Shown: positions 47,775 through 60,957 of the stretch, piece after piece
Position numbering within the stretch: the first letter of the stretch is position 1
Layout of the letters: each line of letters begins with the position of its first letter
Source of the DNA: Paracoccaceae bacterium
GTDB taxonomy: Bacteria > Pseudomonadota > Alphaproteobacteria > Rhodobacterales > Rhodobacteraceae
DNA: 64,000 bases
Assembly: GCA_029243395.1 (NCBI GenBank)
Contig: JAQWSE010000008.1
Span: forward strand, 62,001-126,000
Direction of reading: 5' to 3'
Notes under the pieces: model-generated
Seen by the model: only the letters and a program-made list of their open reading frames with translations
What the model was told of the DNA's origin: nothing
Database searches by the model: none
Program-made: the position numbers and the translations under genes

Positions 47775-47880
47775 TCCCCCTTAAATACTTAATACAAGAA
47801 AACTAGAAGATAATATTGATAATTAGAGTGCCTTATCATATCTTCACTTTAGAAGATAATAATTGGATAGAGGTAGTAAT

Positions 47881-49008
47881 ATGGCAGCACTTTTAGATAC
47901 AGTAGATCCTGACGGTTTATTAGAATACTCGGTCGTATTCACCGATCGTTCATTGAATCACATGTCAAAGAAGTTCCAAGGCGTGATGTGTGACATATCT
48001 ACTATGTTAAAAGAGATCTATCATGGTGACGCTGTGGCATTAGTGCCAGGAGGTGGTACTTATGGAATGGAAGCCGTCGCACGGCAAGTAGCCATAGACA
48101 AACACGCTTTGGTTATAAGAAATGGGTGGTTTTCATATAGGTGGAGTCAAATTTTTGAAAGCGGTAATTTCACTAAGAAAACAACCATTATCAAGGCCCG
48201 ACAGACAGGAAATAAAGGTTGGTCACCGTTTGCACCGGCACCTATTGAAGAAATCACAAAGAAAATTTACGACACCTCTCCTGATGTAGTTTTTGCTCCA
48301 CATGTTGAAACTTCTGCAGGTGTTATAATGCCCGATGAATATCTTAAGGCAATTTCCAAAGCTTGCCACGATGTTGGTGCCCTATTCATCCTAGATTGCA
48401 TAGCATCAGGATGTGCATGGGTAGACATGCAAGCTACAGGTGTAGACATATTAATTTCTGCACCGCAAAAAGGTTGGTCATCTACCCCATCGGCCGGCGT
48501 AGTCATGATGAACAATCGTGCTGTTGAAGTAGTTGAGAGTTCGAACTCAAACAGCTTCGCTATTGATCTCAAGAAATGGCACTCAATCATGAAAACTTAT
48601 GAATCTGGAGGGCATGCCTATCATACCACCATGCCTACTGATTCTTTATGCCACTTTAGAGACACCATGTCGGAAACAAAAGAATACGGTTTTAATAAGC
48701 TGTTTCAAAATCAATGGGAACTAGGCAACGGTGTTAGAAAAATGCTGCAAGGGAAAGGAATTAAATCAGTTGCTGCTGAAGGTTTTCAAGCACCTGGAGT
48801 AGTGGTTAGCTATACAAATGATGATAAAATACAAAACGGAATTAAATTTCGAGATTTGGGGATACAGATAGCAGCCGGAGTTCCACTAATGTGCGACGAA
48901 CCAAAGGATTTTTCTTCCTTTAGAATAGGTCTTTTTGGTTTAGATAAACTATATCATATCGATCAAAGCCTCGAAAAACTCCAAAAGGCCTTTGACAAGG
49001 TTTTTTAA
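47881..49008 (+). CDS. Class V aminotransferase-like PLP enzyme
   Basis: A 375-residue PLP enzyme of the alanine/serine-glyoxylate aminotransferase class. I chose ATG 47881, with GAGGT upstream, over TTG 47863. P-G-G-G-T-Y-G-M-E-A is the PLP phosphate motif. D-C-I-A-S-G-C-A-W holds the Asp for the ring nitrogen. The Schiff-base lysine is in I-S-A-P-Q-K-G-W-S-S-T-P. It lies between two DAO oxidoreductases, so an amino group transfer linked to amino acid catabolism is likely; the substrate is unknown. Confidence 0.85.
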   Translation: MAALLDTVDPDGLLEYSVVFTDRSLNHMSKKFQGVMCDISTMLKEIYHGDAVALVPGGGTYGMEAVARQVAIDKHALVIRNGWFSYRWSQIFESGNFTKKTTIIKARQTGNKGWSPFAPAPIEEITKKIYDTSPDVVFAPHVETSAGVIMPDEYLKAISKACHDVGALFILDCIASGCAWVDMQATGVDILISAPQKGWSSTPSAGVVMMNNRAVEVVESSNSNSFAIDLKKWHSIMKTYESGGHAYHTTMPTDSLCHFRDTMSETKEYGFNKLFQNQWELGNGVRKMLQGKGIKSVAAEGFQAPGVVVSYTNDDKIQNGIKFRDLGIQIAAGVPLMCDEPKDFSSFRIGLFGLDKLYHIDQSLEKLQKAFDKVF

Positions 49009-49085
49009 AAAATATCATTTATTTTGATCTAATATTATAATTTAACTAGAACAAAGTGTATCTTTTTATGCTATAGGTAGTTGTC

Positions 49086-50258
49086 ATGAATTCACCTGAT
49101 GTCATCATAGTAGGTGCAGGAATAACCGGTTGCGCCGCAGCATTTGAGCTATCAAAAGGCAATCTGAAAATTGAAGTTATTGAAAAATACAAACCTGGTT
49201 CTATGGCATCTGGCTGGACACTTGCTGGAGTAAGGCAATCTGGTAGACATTCTGCAGAAATACCCCTAGCAAAATATTCAGTCCAAGAATGGCCTAATTT
49301 AGTGGGAATACTGGGCAGTGAAACCGGATATACCCAAAAGGGTAACTTACGTTTAGCAAGAAATGAAGAGGAAGAAATAATAATTAGGAATCTTGTGAGA
49401 GATCAAAAAAAGGCAGGATTGGATATCACATATTTAAAGGAAAACAAAGATATTCAAGAAATTGCACCAGCCTTATCTAAGAAAGTGCTTGCTGCCTCTT
49501 TTTGTTCTACCGATGGACATGCCGAACCTCTAAAAACCGTTCAAGCTTACAAAATGGCAGCCGAAAGAAATGGTGTCATTTTTTCTAGCAATGAAGAAGT
49601 CTTAGAAATCAATGTAAAGAATAACCGTGTCAGGTCAGTAAGAACCTCTAAAAGGAATGTTGATACCCAAACATGTATTTTAGCAAATGGTATACATTGT
49701 AATTCCCTACTAGAAAATCTAGGTATCAAAATTCCGTTAGACGTGCCAATAGTTACAGTAATTCAAACAGAGAAGACTGCAAAAATACTCAAACCAGTGA
49801 TTGGGGTTGCTAATGCAAATCTGGCAATGCGACAAGAATTAAATGGTTGTTTTCGAATTACTAGCGGAGCTCAGAAATGGGGCGGCAAACTAGAAGAAAA
49901 AGACAAAATGCCCTACGCCGTAACCTCTTTAGAAAAAATACATTTTACTATAGCGCGCGCGATAGAGGTTATTCCAAACCTTAGTCAATGCTCAATAAAG
50001 TCTTTTTGGGGAGGTTTGATAGATTTAACTCCGGATGCACTACCTGTAATAGATCAAATTGAAGAATATGAAGGTTTAATTGTAGCTTCAGGTTTTTCTG
50101 GCCATGGATTTGGTATAGCTCCAGCCATTGGAGGTATTTTGGCAGACCTTACGATGAAGGCCCCCCCTAGATTACCCATTGATCCTTTTTCTCTTTATAG
50201 ATTCAAAAAAAATGATAACTTGAAAGAAGAAGAAAATGAGCCCACTCTTCATGGATAA
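49086..50258 (+). CDS. FAD-dependent oxidoreductase, DadA/D-amino acid dehydrogenase-like
   Basis: A 390-residue DAO-family protein. V-G-A-G-I-T-G-C-A-A is the FAD motif, S-G-W-T-L-A-G-V-R-Q-S-G-R-H is the sarcosine-oxidase/DadA-type second motif, and G-F-S-G-H-G-F-G-I-A-P is the C-terminal FAD motif. It is directly upstream of the DUF1611-epimerase pair on the same strand, suggesting it acts on the same D-amino acid pool. D-amino acid dehydrogenase, sarcosine oxidase and glycine-oxidase-like activity cannot be told apart from sequence. Confidence 0.85.
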   Translation: MNSPDVIIVGAGITGCAAAFELSKGNLKIEVIEKYKPGSMASGWTLAGVRQSGRHSAEIPLAKYSVQEWPNLVGILGSETGYTQKGNLRLARNEEEEIIIRNLVRDQKKAGLDITYLKENKDIQEIAPALSKKVLAASFCSTDGHAEPLKTVQAYKMAAERNGVIFSSNEEVLEINVKNNRVRSVRTSKRNVDTQTCILANGIHCNSLLENLGIKIPLDVPIVTVIQTEKTAKILKPVIGVANANLAMRQELNGCFRITSGAQKWGGKLEEKDKMPYAVTSLEKIHFTIARAIEVIPNLSQCSIKSFWGGLIDLTPDALPVIDQIEEYEGLIVASGFSGHGFGIAPAIGGILADLTMKAPPRLPIDPFSLYRFKKNDNLKEEENEPTLHG

Positions 50259-50328
50259 CTAAATACATTCATAATATTTAAAAAGTGCAAGCCACAATAT
50301 TAACATCTTTTTTTCTGAGAGACACACT

Positions 50329-51330
50329 ATGATAAAGACACCATATTTATTATTCTTAGGAGACGCTCCTGATCAACTGGCTGCTAAGGTCGGTCAAGGA
50401 ATCAAAGACTGGAGACCAGATATTTGTCTTGGACAAATAAGGTTGCCTGGTTGTAAAGCAGACTTAGGGCTCCGTGATTATACACTTGAAGAAGCAAAAA
50501 ATTCAGGAGCAAGAACATTAATAGTTGGGGTTGCCAACAGGGGAGGAAAATTTTCTCCAACCTGGAAAGAAACCTTGTGTCAGGCCCTAGATTTAAAATT
50601 TGATATCGCTTCAGGCTTGCACAACTTACTATCGAATGAAAAAGATTTCAAAGAGTTAGCAAGTTTAAACCAGTGCAATTTGTTTGACGTTCGTGTAACA
50701 TCGGAAAACTTTCCCATAGCAAATGGTAAAAAAAGATCTGGCAAGAGGTGTTTGACTATAGGAACCGATTGCTCCATAGGGAAAATGTACTCCACTTTGG
50801 CAATAGAACGAGAGATGCTTTCTAGAAGAATGAAAGCCACATTTAGGGCTACTGGCCAAACAGGCATTCTAATAAGTGGAAGTGGAATACCTCTTGATGC
50901 AATAGTAGCAGATTTTATGGCTGGAGCTGTAGAAACCCTGACACCGGACGCTGATCATGATCATTGGGATCTCATAGAAGGTCAAGGATCTCTTTTTCAT
51001 GTTTCATATTCTGGTGTGACCATGGCCCTAATTCACGGCGGTCAACCTGACCATCTAATACTATGCCATGAACCCACGAGAACACATATGAGAGGCTTAC
51101 CACACTACAGCATACCGACGCTAGAAGCTCTTTATGAAACTGCACTACCTCTCGCAAGAATAGGTAATCCGGACTGTAAAATATCTGGTATCTGTGTAAA
51201 TACTAAGAATACTAATGAGGTTGAAGGAAAAGCCTTGATAAAAGAAATAGAAAGTACTTTCCAATTACCCACCGTAGATCCTTTTAAAGATGGCACAAAG
51301 AAAATTGTTGATAATCTCCTAAAAAATTAA
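50329..51330 (+). CDS. dgcN: DUF1611 P-loop protein, probable D-glutamate N-acetyltransferase (DgcN-like)
   Basis: A 333-residue DUF1611 protein. The N-terminal domain has D-I-C-L-G-Q-I-R-L-P-G-C-K-A-D. The C-terminal P-loop has G-T-D-C-S-I-G-K-M-Y-S-T near residue 145 and R-A-T-G-Q-T-G downstream. In marine Pseudoalteromonas the DUF1611 protein DgcN acetylates D-glutamate, and the paired epimerase DgcA converts it to N-acetyl-L-glutamate. Here the epimerase gene follows 14 bases later. The pairing, not this gene alone, supports the call. Activity is inferred from the described family. Confidence 0.7.
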   Translation: MIKTPYLLFLGDAPDQLAAKVGQGIKDWRPDICLGQIRLPGCKADLGLRDYTLEEAKNSGARTLIVGVANRGGKFSPTWKETLCQALDLKFDIASGLHNLLSNEKDFKELASLNQCNLFDVRVTSENFPIANGKKRSGKRCLTIGTDCSIGKMYSTLAIEREMLSRRMKATFRATGQTGILISGSGIPLDAIVADFMAGAVETLTPDADHDHWDLIEGQGSLFHVSYSGVTMALIHGGQPDHLILCHEPTRTHMRGLPHYSIPTLEALYETALPLARIGNPDCKISGICVNTKNTNEVEGKALIKEIESTFQLPTVDPFKDGTKKIVDNLLKN

Positions 51331-51344
51331 CTAAAGGATCAATT

Positions 51345-52313
51345 GTGCATCTAAGTGTAGAAAAAAACTCTTTCAAACTTAAAAAAATGTTTACTATTTC
51401 CAGGGGTTCTAGAACTTCTGCTGACGTCCTCACAGTGATCATTAGAGATAAGGGTTTCAAAGGTTGGGCTGAATGCGTTCCTTATAAAAGATATAATGAA
51501 AGTTTGGAAACTGTTATCAAACAAATCGAATCCATTAAATTACCTACCAGTATCGGTCAATTACAAGAATCATTAGGATCTGGGGCTGCTAGAAATGCGG
51601 TAGATTGTGCTCTATGGGATCTAAAAGCAAAAACAACAGGAACTCCTGTATGGAAACTATTGGGCATAGAGGAACCTAAACCATCTATAACAGTTTATAC
51701 GATTTCATTAGATACCCCAGAAAACATGGAGAAGGAAGCCCGACACAAAAAAAATTACCCCATACTTAAAGTAAAATTAGGTGGTTCAAACGATGAAAAC
51801 TGTATAAGAGCTGTTAGAAAGGGATCTCCAAAAGCGAGAATAATTGTAGATGCCAATGAAGCGTGGACACCTGAAATATATATTTACTTAGGACCAGTAT
51901 TTAAGAACCTTGGGGTAGAATTGGTGGAACAACCTTTTCCGGCAGGCAAAGATTCCATCCTTAGGAGTTTAGATCGAATATTACCGGTTTGTGCAGACGA
52001 AAGCTGTCATGGCTTAGAAAGTTTGAATCATTTATTAGGCCTCTATGATTTTGTAAATATTAAATTAGATAAGACTGGTGGATTAACAGAAGCAATCAAA
52101 GTTTTAAAATCAGCTAAAGAAAAAGGCTTTAAAATTATGCTAGGCTGTATGGTAGGATCTTCTCTAGCAATGGCCCCTGCCATGTTACTCGCCCACATGT
52201 GTGATTTCGTTGATCTTGATGGACCTTTGCTCCTTGATGAAGATAGACCAAATCCATTAATCTATGAAAATCATCTGGCTTTTCCTCCCAAATCTAATCT
52301 TTGGGGTCATTAA
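51345..52313 (+). CDS. dgcA: Enolase-superfamily dipeptide epimerase, probable N-acetyl-D-glutamate racemase (DgcA-like)
   Basis: A 322-residue muconate-lactonizing-subgroup enolase member, starting with GTG 51345. The K-x-K motif is in L-K-V-K-L-G-G near residue 145. Metal ligands are in D-A-N-E-A-W, E-Q-P-F-P and A-D-E-S. The second base lysine is in I-K-L-D-K-T-G-G. These are the hallmark residues of Ala-Glu/dipeptide epimerases. Immediate coupling with the DUF1611 gene points to N-acetyl-D-glutamate rather than L-Ala-D-Glu, though peptidoglycan-derived dipeptides remain possible. Confidence 0.78.
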   Translation: MHLSVEKNSFKLKKMFTISRGSRTSADVLTVIIRDKGFKGWAECVPYKRYNESLETVIKQIESIKLPTSIGQLQESLGSGAARNAVDCALWDLKAKTTGTPVWKLLGIEEPKPSITVYTISLDTPENMEKEARHKKNYPILKVKLGGSNDENCIRAVRKGSPKARIIVDANEAWTPEIYIYLGPVFKNLGVELVEQPFPAGKDSILRSLDRILPVCADESCHGLESLNHLLGLYDFVNIKLDKTGGLTEAIKVLKSAKEKGFKIMLGCMVGSSLAMAPAMLLAHMCDFVDLDGPLLLDEDRPNPLIYENHLAFPPKSNLWGH

Positions 52314-55543: not shown

Positions 55544-55630
55544 AAGATATATCTAACTAGAAAATGATACATAACAATTTCCATAATATCTTTCTAAAAT
55601 TAGTATTTCATCACTTTATTAATGCTTCTC

Positions 55631-55692
55631 GAGAAAATTATTTTCTCTGATCAAGACGTCTCTGAAAACTTTACAAAGATCAAACTAGTTTG
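55631..55692 (+). promoter_or_regulatory. Inverted repeats upstream of tmpA
   Basis: Two dyads lie in the 193-base gap. GAGAAAA and TTTTCTC (55631-55647) form a 7-bp stem with a TTA centre. CAAACTAGTTTG (55681-55692) is a perfect 12-bp palindrome ending 44 bases before the tmpA ATG. The second could be an operator; the first could end the phosphatase transcript. Neither is proven. Confidence 0.35.
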
Positions 55693-55736
55693 TATTTTTC
55701 TTAAAAAGTAATTGGAGTAGCAAAGGTTTTTCTACC

Positions 55737-56870
55737 ATGATGAAAGCAGATATTAGCAGCTCTAGATCTTTTATGACACTACAAACAAACGAAGGATCTT
55801 TCAGGTTTCATGCAATTTGGCTCCGCGATAATGCATTGGATGAAAATGCAAGGGATCCCAGAAACGGACAAAGGCTCATTACCTTACAGGATATTCCTAA
55901 AGACATAAGATTAGATTCTGTAATTATTGAAGATAATGAAATCCTCTGCACCTTTAGTCCAGAAAATAAAATCATCCGATATTCCATAAAGTGGTTATTA
56001 AATCATACTTATGATAATCAAAAAAATAGTGATAGGATTAGGCTAGAATCTGAAAGCATCCTTTGGGATAAGGAACTTCAAAAAGAAATTCCAAAATGCA
56101 ACATTTCTGAGCTAGAAAGTAATTCTATTTCATTACAAAAATGGCTTTTTGATATCCACAGATACGGGTTTGCTAAAGTAAATGGAATGTCTGGAATACC
56201 TGATGAAATTTTCAGGATAGTTGACTTATTTGGTTATGTGCGCGAAACAAATTATGGTCGCCATTTTGAGGTTCGTACTGAAGTGAATCCAGTTAATCTT
56301 GCATACACAAGATTAGCTCTTCAAGCCCACACTGATAATCCTTATCGAGATCCTGTACCAACCCTACAGATTTTATCTTGTGTTGAAAATTCAACAGAGG
56401 GTGGAGAGAGTATGGTTGTGGATGGGTATAAGATCGCTATGGACATTTATTCTGAAGATCCAGAAGGTTTTTCCTGCCTTGCAAAGTTTCCTGCACGTTT
56501 TTCCTATGATGGGTCAAAAGAAGTATCACTGAAGGCTAAGAAGCCCATGATAGAATTGAGTCCAGATAATGAACTCAGATGCATCCGCTTTAACTCCCGC
56601 TCCACCGCACCACTTGTTGATGTTCCATTCAACTTTATGGAAAAATATTATGAGGCCTATAGGAGGTTTGCAGAACTTGTTGACATAACCCAAAATCAGG
56701 TCGCATTTAAACTAAAACCAGGGGAAGCTTTTATAGTTGACAATACTCGTGTACTTCACTCTAGAAAAGGATATTCAGGATCTGGAAAACGATGGTTACA
56801 AGGATGCTATGCGGATAAGGATAGCCTCTTATCAAAATTGAGAAGTTTGGAAAATCTAAATGTTGGATGA
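55737..56870 (+). CDS. tmpA: 2-oxoglutarate/Fe(II) dioxygenase, TmpA-like 2-(trimethylammonio)ethylphosphonate hydroxylase
   Basis: A 377-residue protein of the gamma-butyrobetaine hydroxylase/TauD family. The Fe(II) facial triad is H198, D200 (A-H-T-D-N-P) and H341 (V-L-H-S-R). R352 in K-R-W-L-Q-G-C would bind 2-oxoglutarate. The N-terminal domain has I-W-L-R-D-N-A-L-D-E, where true butyrobetaine hydroxylases have a cysteine-rich zinc site (W-L-R-D-N-C-x-C-x-x-C); the cysteines are missing. The described TmpA hydroxylates trimethylammonioethylphosphonate. The gene overlaps the HD-domain partner by 11 bases, which makes the TmpA call much more likely than BBOX. Confidence 0.78.
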   Translation: MMKADISSSRSFMTLQTNEGSFRFHAIWLRDNALDENARDPRNGQRLITLQDIPKDIRLDSVIIEDNEILCTFSPENKIIRYSIKWLLNHTYDNQKNSDRIRLESESILWDKELQKEIPKCNISELESNSISLQKWLFDIHRYGFAKVNGMSGIPDEIFRIVDLFGYVRETNYGRHFEVRTEVNPVNLAYTRLALQAHTDNPYRDPVPTLQILSCVENSTEGGESMVVDGYKIAMDIYSEDPEGFSCLAKFPARFSYDGSKEVSLKAKKPMIELSPDNELRCIRFNSRSTAPLVDVPFNFMEKYYEAYRRFAELVDITQNQVAFKLKPGEAFIVDNTRVLHSRKGYSGSGKRWLQGCYADKDSLLSKLRSLENLNVG

Positions 56871-57459
56871 AAAATTCAAGAAACTTACCAAAGAAAATAT
56901 TGTTAGCTTTCTAGCACATATTTTTGAAGAGCTTGGAGATGAAGAGTATCTTGGAGAACCCGTGACAATGGCTCAACATATGTTACAAGGTGCAACACTT
57001 GCCGAAAAAGAAGGCTTCTCTGAGAATGTAATCGTTGCTGCATTACTGCATGACATTGGTCATTTCACAAGTGAATTTGGAACTTTTAGTATGTCTGACC
57101 AAGCCGACAAATATCATGAGGAAGCCGGAGCTAAGGTTTTAGAATCTTTCTTTCCAAGTATAGTGATTGACTGCGTTAAATATCACGTAGCAGCAAAGAG
57201 ATATTTGTGTGCAACTTCTCCTACTTATTTTAAGAAACTGTCTAATGCTTCCGTGCATTCTTTAAATTTGCAAGGGGGACCCATGTCTAAAGTAGAGATA
57301 AAGGAATTCAGAAAAAATCCTAATTTAGATCAAATTGTGCAAGTTAGATATTTAGATGATGCTGGAAAAGATCCCAATATGGCTATTACAGATTTCTGGC
57401 ATTTTGCTCCCATGATAAGAAGGGTGATAGAAAATCATCTCAACAATTTGAAAAATTAG
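56860..57459 (+). CDS. tmpB: HD-domain di-iron oxygenase, TmpB/PhnZ-like
   Basis: A 199-residue mixed-valence di-iron oxygenase of the phosphonate-associated HD family. Likely metal ligands are H40 (Q-H-M-L-Q-G), H64-D65 (A-L-L-H-D-I-G-H), H86 (Y-H-E-E-A-G) and H109 (K-Y-H-V-A-A-K-R-Y-L), plus a late Asp. Y30 and E33 match the PhnZ spacing of residues that hold the substrate amine. L-Q-G-G-P-M-S is a family signature. Pairing with a BBOX-type dioxygenase points to cleavage of the hydroxylated phosphonate to glycine betaine plus phosphate. The PhnZ substrate, aminoethylphosphonate, is an alternative. Confidence 0.82.
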   Translation: MLDEKFKKLTKENIVSFLAHIFEELGDEEYLGEPVTMAQHMLQGATLAEKEGFSENVIVAALLHDIGHFTSEFGTFSMSDQADKYHEEAGAKVLESFFPSIVIDCVKYHVAAKRYLCATSPTYFKKLSNASVHSLNLQGGPMSKVEIKEFRKNPNLDQIVQVRYLDDAGKDPNMAITDFWHFAPMIRRVIENHLNNLKN

Positions 57460-58081
57460 AGCCTAAGAGCTGCCGTTCATTACCCGGGCGGTGATTCGAT
57501 AAAAGGTTATTTGAAATTTATAAAGTCGAGCTTTTCATACGTTCAATTTTTAACTTACTTCGAAAAATCAACCAGTAATCACCAATCAGAATGCTACATT
57601 GTGGATCTGAAGTGTGCTAACCAAGAGAGCTCCATTGCAAATATACTTTAATTTTTACACTCATTTTTGTACAATAATTTTTTTTCAGAAAAAGTAATTA
57701 TATATAAAATTGATAAGAGCCTTGAAAACATTAGAAAAAATGATTTATCGTTAAAGAACGACCTGTGGATAAATCTGGGGATATTTCTGGCCAAGAATAA
57801 TCAGATGTTTTCTTACTAGTTTACGGGGAAATAAACTGGAATTTGCGGAAAAAATATAACCATTTGTTTTCATTAGATTTTTTTAAGTTTTCCTGTGATT
57901 TCATTTTTCTTTTTGGGAAGTTGTTAAAAATTAGGTTAAAAATATCACAGAAAGCTTTTTGTGCATAAAGTCAGTTAGTTATGACAAGTAATGCATATAA
58001 AAAAGGAAGTTTGAGGATATATTTTGTCGACATCCTTGCTTAGTTTTTGCTACTACTAATTGCGAATTGAGAAGGTCCTTT
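57460..58081. other. Gene-free A+T-rich region with DnaA-box-like sites (possible oriC)
   Basis: This 622-base stretch has no convincing gene, although the tmpB frame stays open for ~66 codons after its stop. It has a perfect DnaA box (TGTGGATAA, 57764-57772), a consensus box TGTGCATAA (57960-57968), and weaker sites at 57600-57608, 57653-57661 and 57776-57784. A very A+T-rich segment lies around 57660-57720. Together these are origin-like. The flanking genes tmpB and coaX are not usual oriC neighbours. Confidence 0.35.
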
Positions 58082-60204: not shown

Positions 60205-60957
60205 ATGGTGTGGGTGGGGGAACGTATTTTGTTTCAAAGCACTTCAGAAGAATCTGAAAAGCTATCTCTTGCTATATTTGCTCTTAGCGAGGTTGCTACA
60301 AAGAATATTCCAGCTGAAAAAGTCTGCTTTCAAAATGAGCTGGATGTATTTTGTAATGCTATTTTATCACGAGATGATGAATTTCAGACTGAATTCATAA
60401 ATGATTTGTGCCATAAGCATAACTCAACAGATCCCATTCTTGAGCAATTTATTCCTGAGGTCGCGGGACGCCTCGGTCAAATGTGGAAAGATGACAGAAT
60501 TTCATTTTTAGATGTGTCCTTCGGAGTTGATAGGCTTCAAAAGCTGGTTCGCATTTACGAAAAAAAATACCTAGGCCCTCTTTATCAAGATTATAAAGGA
60601 CCTCCTGTCCTTTTGATCTTACCCCAATCAGAGACCCATAGCCTAGGAATAATCACCGCATCAATTATTATGAAAAAAAATGGTGTGAATCCGTTCTTAG
60701 CCTTAGGTTATTCTCAAAAAAAACTACTGGACTTGATAAATTCAATTGACTTTCAATTGTTTGGGTTATCTGCATCCTGTTGTAATAGTTTAGATGAATG
60801 TATCCAGATTGGTAAAAAATTAAGGAAAATTCTTAACCCTGATATCCCCTTAGTACTAGGTTATAGTCTTCAAGATTCAATCTATAAACCAGAAATTAAG
60901 AAGATATTCACTAAGATCACGAGAGATCCTTTAGAAGCTATCCGTCTGATAAAATAA
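60205..60957 (+). CDS. AerR/PpaA-like B12- or heme-binding sensor protein
   Basis: A 250-residue protein resembling AerR/PpaA, antirepressors of photosynthesis genes. The helical N-half has D-D-R-I-S-F-L-D-V-S-F-G, matching the family's R-V-S-F-x-D-V-T-I-G. The Rossmann-like C-half carries H145 in S-E-T-H-S-L-G-I-I-T, the position of the axial ligand for cobalamin. A C-C-N-S segment follows. No photosynthesis gene is in the window. Such SCHIC-type proteins also occur in non-phototrophs, so redox, light or B12 sensing is a reasonable inference. Confidence 0.65.
   Translation: MVWVGERILFQSTSEESEKLSLAIFALSEVATKNIPAEKVCFQNELDVFCNAILSRDDEFQTEFINDLCHKHNSTDPILEQFIPEVAGRLGQMWKDDRISFLDVSFGVDRLQKLVRIYEKKYLGPLYQDYKGPPVLLILPQSETHSLGIITASIIMKKNGVNPFLALGYSQKKLLDLINSIDFQLFGLSASCCNSLDECIQIGKKLRKILNPDIPLVLGYSLQDSIYKPEIKKIFTKITRDPLEAIRLIK

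Follow-up and report, generated by a model that had tools for sequence, protein, structure and literature searches.

The tmpA and tmpB genes and their assignment

We analysed a stretch of 64,000 nucleotides (henceforth the window), in which two intact open reading frames, overlapping by 11 bases as originally described, encode a predicted pair of phosphonate-degrading oxygenases:

55737..56870, + strand: tmpA, Fe(II)/2-oxoglutarate 2-trimethylaminoethylphosphonate dioxygenase, 377 aa (assigned from profile scores, PDB matches, residues and tree)
56860..57459, + strand: tmpB, HD-domain mixed-valent diiron (R)-1-hydroxy-2-trimethylaminoethylphosphonate oxygenase, 199 aa (assigned from profile scores, PDB matches and residues)
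56860..56870, + strand: overlap between the tmpA 3' end and the tmpB start, 11 bp (from ORF coordinates)

The overlap implies that the two genes would be co-transcribed and their translation coupled, and it places next to tmpB the partner gene by which a TmpB is recognised (i.e., that of a TmpA). Across public genomes, tmpB was adjacent to or overlapping tmpA in 79 of the 80 tmpA loci that we collected.

Both products scored above the cut-offs of the curated equivalog models for these enzymes and below those of the BBOX and PhnZ-type families, and the trees described below agree, which bears out the original prediction of a TmpA-TmpB-like pair. Specifically, TmpA obtained 521.3 bits against NF049936 (TmpA equivalog; cut-off 400) and 388.1 bits against TIGR02409 (gamma-butyrobetaine dioxygenase, BBOX; cut-off 414.75), while TmpB obtained 332.1 bits against NF049941 (TmpB equivalog; cut-off 300), 198 bits against TIGR03276 (PhnZ-type; cut-off 214.6) and 136 bits against NF052439 (the PhnZ1 model; cut-off 300). 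The solved structure best matched by TmpA was Leisingera TmpA 6NPB (E 1e-132), with butyrobetaine dioxygenases next (E 1.8e-45); for TmpB it was TmpB 6NPA (299 bits, E 1.3e-88), with PhnZ at 104 bits (E 5.6e-29). The expectation that many genomes would mislabel the first gene as butyrobetaine dioxygenase now applies mainly to legacy annotations, as both genes receive their correct names from current NCBIfam models. TmpB relatives in PLSDB records are still labelled 'HD domain-containing protein'.

Active sites and alternative assignments

TmpB enzymes are marked by the diiron motif H...HD...H...H...D together with a YxxE loop (PMC8177086), and all of these residues are present in the window TmpB (H40, H64-D65, H86, H109 and D166, with Y30/E33 in the loop). 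The HD-oxygenase residues named beforehand (Y30, E33, H40, H64-D65, H86 and H109) were found at exactly those positions, and they, like D166, are invariant in 81 of 81 TmpB rows. TmpB of Leisingera caerulea (PDB 6NPA) has the same ligands and the same YxxE loop, with identical Y30/E33 numbering, and differs from the window protein in sequence divergence only. A quick tree separated TmpB from PhnZ with an SH-aLRT value of 93 (i.e., moderate support), the window protein siding with TmpB.

These results bear on whether the pair could instead belong to a PhnY*/PhnZ-type pathway, acting on aminoethylphosphonate or methylphosphonate. Such a pathway also combines hydroxylation and diiron C-P cleavage in two steps, fold and mechanism are common to TmpB and PhnZ, and TmpB obtains 198 bits against TIGR03276; however, the window TmpB stays below the cut-offs of both TIGR03276 and the PhnZ1 model, it matches 6NPA with 299 bits vs 104 for PhnZ, and its partner dioxygenase is of the BBOX/TmpA type, a subfamily other than that of PhnY*. 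We consider this assignment very unlikely.

In TmpA, the Fe-binding HXD...H triad lies where it had been predicted (H198, D200 and H341) and is invariant in 83 of 83 TmpA rows. The tree of this family comprised 91 rows (83 TmpA, including the window protein, and 8 BBOX-type relatives), and the TmpA rows split from the BBOX-type relatives with support of 100/99, the window protein falling among them. The zinc-binding cysteines of BBOX, which the N-terminus had been said to lack, are indeed absent, as they are in Leisingera TmpA: the first cysteine of the window protein is C71, and other residues fill the BBOX cysteine positions.

Phosphonate contacts in TmpA are made by N187, N287 and R288, human BBOX having two asparagines only (PMC9296572). 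At these listed positions, the window protein keeps N187 and R288 and carries a serine at 287. R288 is invariant in all 83 TmpA rows, with histidine in its place in 7 of the 8 BBOX-type rows, while position 287 is asparagine in 53 TmpA rows, alanine in 18 and serine in 12. Because position 287 varies in this way across the family, S287 is ordinary variation, and N287 is not a defining feature of TmpA. TmpA of Leisingera caerulea (PDB 6NPB-6NPD) is 56% identical to the window protein and has in common with it the Fe triad, N187, R288 and the absence of zinc cysteines; it differs in having N287, and the window protein comes from an AT-rich genome and has the longer branch (1.72 in the tree of 91 rows), a length consistent with the unusual letter make-up of such a genome.

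The serine at 287 and the long branch could together be taken to mean that a TmpA/TmpB-like pair has shifted its specificity, through S287 and other changes on that branch, towards a related quaternary-ammonium phosphonate. This is extremely unlikely in our view, given that 30 of the 83 family members have alanine or serine at 287, that the remaining contact positions listed for TmpA are kept, and that the branch length fits the base make-up of the genome. Equally improbable is a gamma-butyrobetaine (carnitine-forming) dioxygenase with an HD protein merely adjoining: the two enzymes belong to one superfamily, the window TmpA shares the BBOX fold and iron triad, and it obtains 388 bits against TIGR02409, but this score is under the family cut-off of 414.75 and 133 bits under the score against the TmpA model, the zinc cysteines are absent, Arg288 stands where 7 of 8 BBOX-type relatives have His, the tree split is supported at 100/99, and a tmpB partner gene overlaps.

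Predicted pathway, transport and regulation

In the established pathway, TmpA hydroxylates trimethylaminoethylphosphonate and TmpB cuts the C-P bond, yielding glycine betaine and phosphate (PMC10574752, PMC8177086). We are highly confident that the window pair is a two-gene tmpA-tmpB operon for the conversion of 2-(trimethylammonio)ethylphosphonate into glycine betaine and phosphate; the enzyme identities are read from sequence, and substrate, uptake and product use are predicted by extension. TmpA, with Fe(II), 2-oxoglutarate and O2, would hydroxylate C1 of 2-(trimethylammonio)ethylphosphonate to give the (R)-1-hydroxy compound, whose C-P bond TmpB, with its mixed-valent Fe(II)/Fe(III) centre and O2, would then cut. 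The phosphate released may serve phosphorus nutrition, and the betaine may act as an osmolyte or as a methyl donor. The second of these uses could proceed through betaine-homocysteine methyltransferase (BHMT), which is present in the home genome (436 bits vs a cut-off of 338).

The substrate might enter through a betaine-type transporter or through an ABC transporter whose genes are found some 22 kb downstream of tmpB. The latter emerged from a genome search for phosphonate transporters; the earlier statement that no phn transporter is adjacent holds within the window, but the contig does carry one:

C4:141304-144769 (= L035:15304-18769), outside the window: PhnD-PhnC-PhnE-PhnE operon, phosphate/phosphite/phosphonate ABC transporter (PhnC and both PhnE above equivalog cut-offs, PhnD above a subfamily cut-off)

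PhnD is 84-90% identical in six congeners showing no tmpA match, and because PhnDCEE is conserved in congeners without tmpAB, this transporter is not dedicated to the tmpAB pathway. Phosphate or phosphite can be the cargo of PhnDCE systems, as is argued for picocyanobacteria (PMC10284923). The G001 copy of PhnD contains one internal TGA. No PhnD match was found near tmpA in any of 80 public tmpA loci (search range at most 6 kb, less on some short contigs), so the absence of an adjacent transporter is normal for the tmpA family. Next to the window tmpAB lies neither a regulator nor a dedicated transporter.

In the home genome, a search for C-P genes covering PhnJ, PhnW and PEP mutase found neither a C-P lyase PhnJ nor a PhnW match over the cut-off. 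Its sole PEP mutase match was rejected as a phosphonate synthesis gene, being methylisocitrate-lyase-like. With the tmpAB pair, a characterised route of C-P bond cleavage is extended to an AT-rich genome of 2.5 Mb in which no C-P lyase was detected.

The 12-bp palindrome that had been pointed out upstream of tmpA does exist (55681-55692), but at a frequency expected by chance (26 perfect 12-mer palindromes observed in the window vs 22.6 expected), and we therefore rejected it as an operator. A scan of the window allowing three mismatches gave 10 Pho-box-like matches vs a shuffle mean of 4.8, none of them between the phosphatase gene and tmpA. Promoter-like sites did not exceed their frequency in shuffled sequence, and a search for intrinsic terminators gave none.

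Probable gain and loss of tmpAB at the site

In congeners G001, G002, G004 and G006, the genes that flank the pair in the window (those for a methyltransferase and a histidine phosphatase, coaX and coaBC) are joined without tmpAB. The congener genomes are incomplete drafts, and the absence of tmpAB from them is based on the empty syntenic sites in these four. Two segments of the window are defined by such comparisons:

55596..57706 (ends approximate): segment of about 2.1 kb with tmpAB that congener G004 lacks at its syntenic site (BLASTN)
55735..57280 (ends approximate; break inside imperfect 19-bp repeats): segment of 1,546 bp that the sister genome G003 lacks (intergenic region of G003 contig 29 compared with the window by BLASTN)

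Alignment of the G004 intergenic region to the window breaks off after 55595 and resumes at 57707 (BLASTN). G003 is a near relative, its phosphatase being 94% identical, and the site there holds what looks like a deletion scar (L037:8029-9017, contig 29): the flank upstream of tmpA extends as far as the tmpA start codon, where the sequence switches to tmpB near codon 144. What remains is a short in-frame fusion of the tmpA start and the tmpB tail that lacks the catalytic domains. On the simplest reading, tmpAB appears to have been gained in the lineage of G000 and G003 and then lost in G003, although the G003 assembly is a draft (about 110 contigs, 89% completeness) and the scar could be an assembly artefact. 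Within the sampled genus, the tmpAB segment at this site is confined to this lineage. This points to the tmpAB pathway having been recently gained and lost inside one genus. The pair itself represents the known TmpA/TmpB pathway, whose chemistry is already described; what is new at this locus is its insertion in one lineage and its apparent deletion in a sister genome.

As regards the source of the segment, the TmpA tree places the window protein beside gammaproteobacterial Granulosicoccaceae MAGs (99/87), while the TmpB tree places its partner beside other rows with weak support, and the two trees name no common donor. We rejected base composition as a mark of foreign origin, as both GC and GC3 of tmpAB match those of the neighbouring genes, and discounted a 7-bp direct repeat (TAAAATT) at the insert boundaries as too short in AT-rich DNA. 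No TmpA relatives were found in viral contigs. One Pseudomonas phage record (OQ658365.1, 61064-61573) encodes an unannotated HD-oxygenase relative of TmpB, 45% identical and located near the record end.

A wider reading, which we put forward tentatively and consider rather doubtful, is that tmpAB may be a cassette free of regulator and transporter that enters and leaves small-genome bacteria at neutral intergenic sites and makes trimethylated phosphonate, their sole C-P substrate, available to them; were this so, the G003 deletion between short repeats would represent one loss event.

Two further regions of the window deserve mention. A 250-aa open reading frame (60205-60957) had no Pfam or NCBIfam match at E 0.001, and its C-terminal half has, by eye, the look of a putative cobalamin-binding-type domain. 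On the + strand, a run of genes at 47863-52313 encodes a class V aminotransferase, a DAO-type FAD oxidoreductase, the N-acetyltransferase DgcN (NF041892, 519 bits) and the N-acetyl-D-Glu racemase DgcA (NF042940, 452 bits), and from its predicted products it looks like a D-glutamate catabolism operon.
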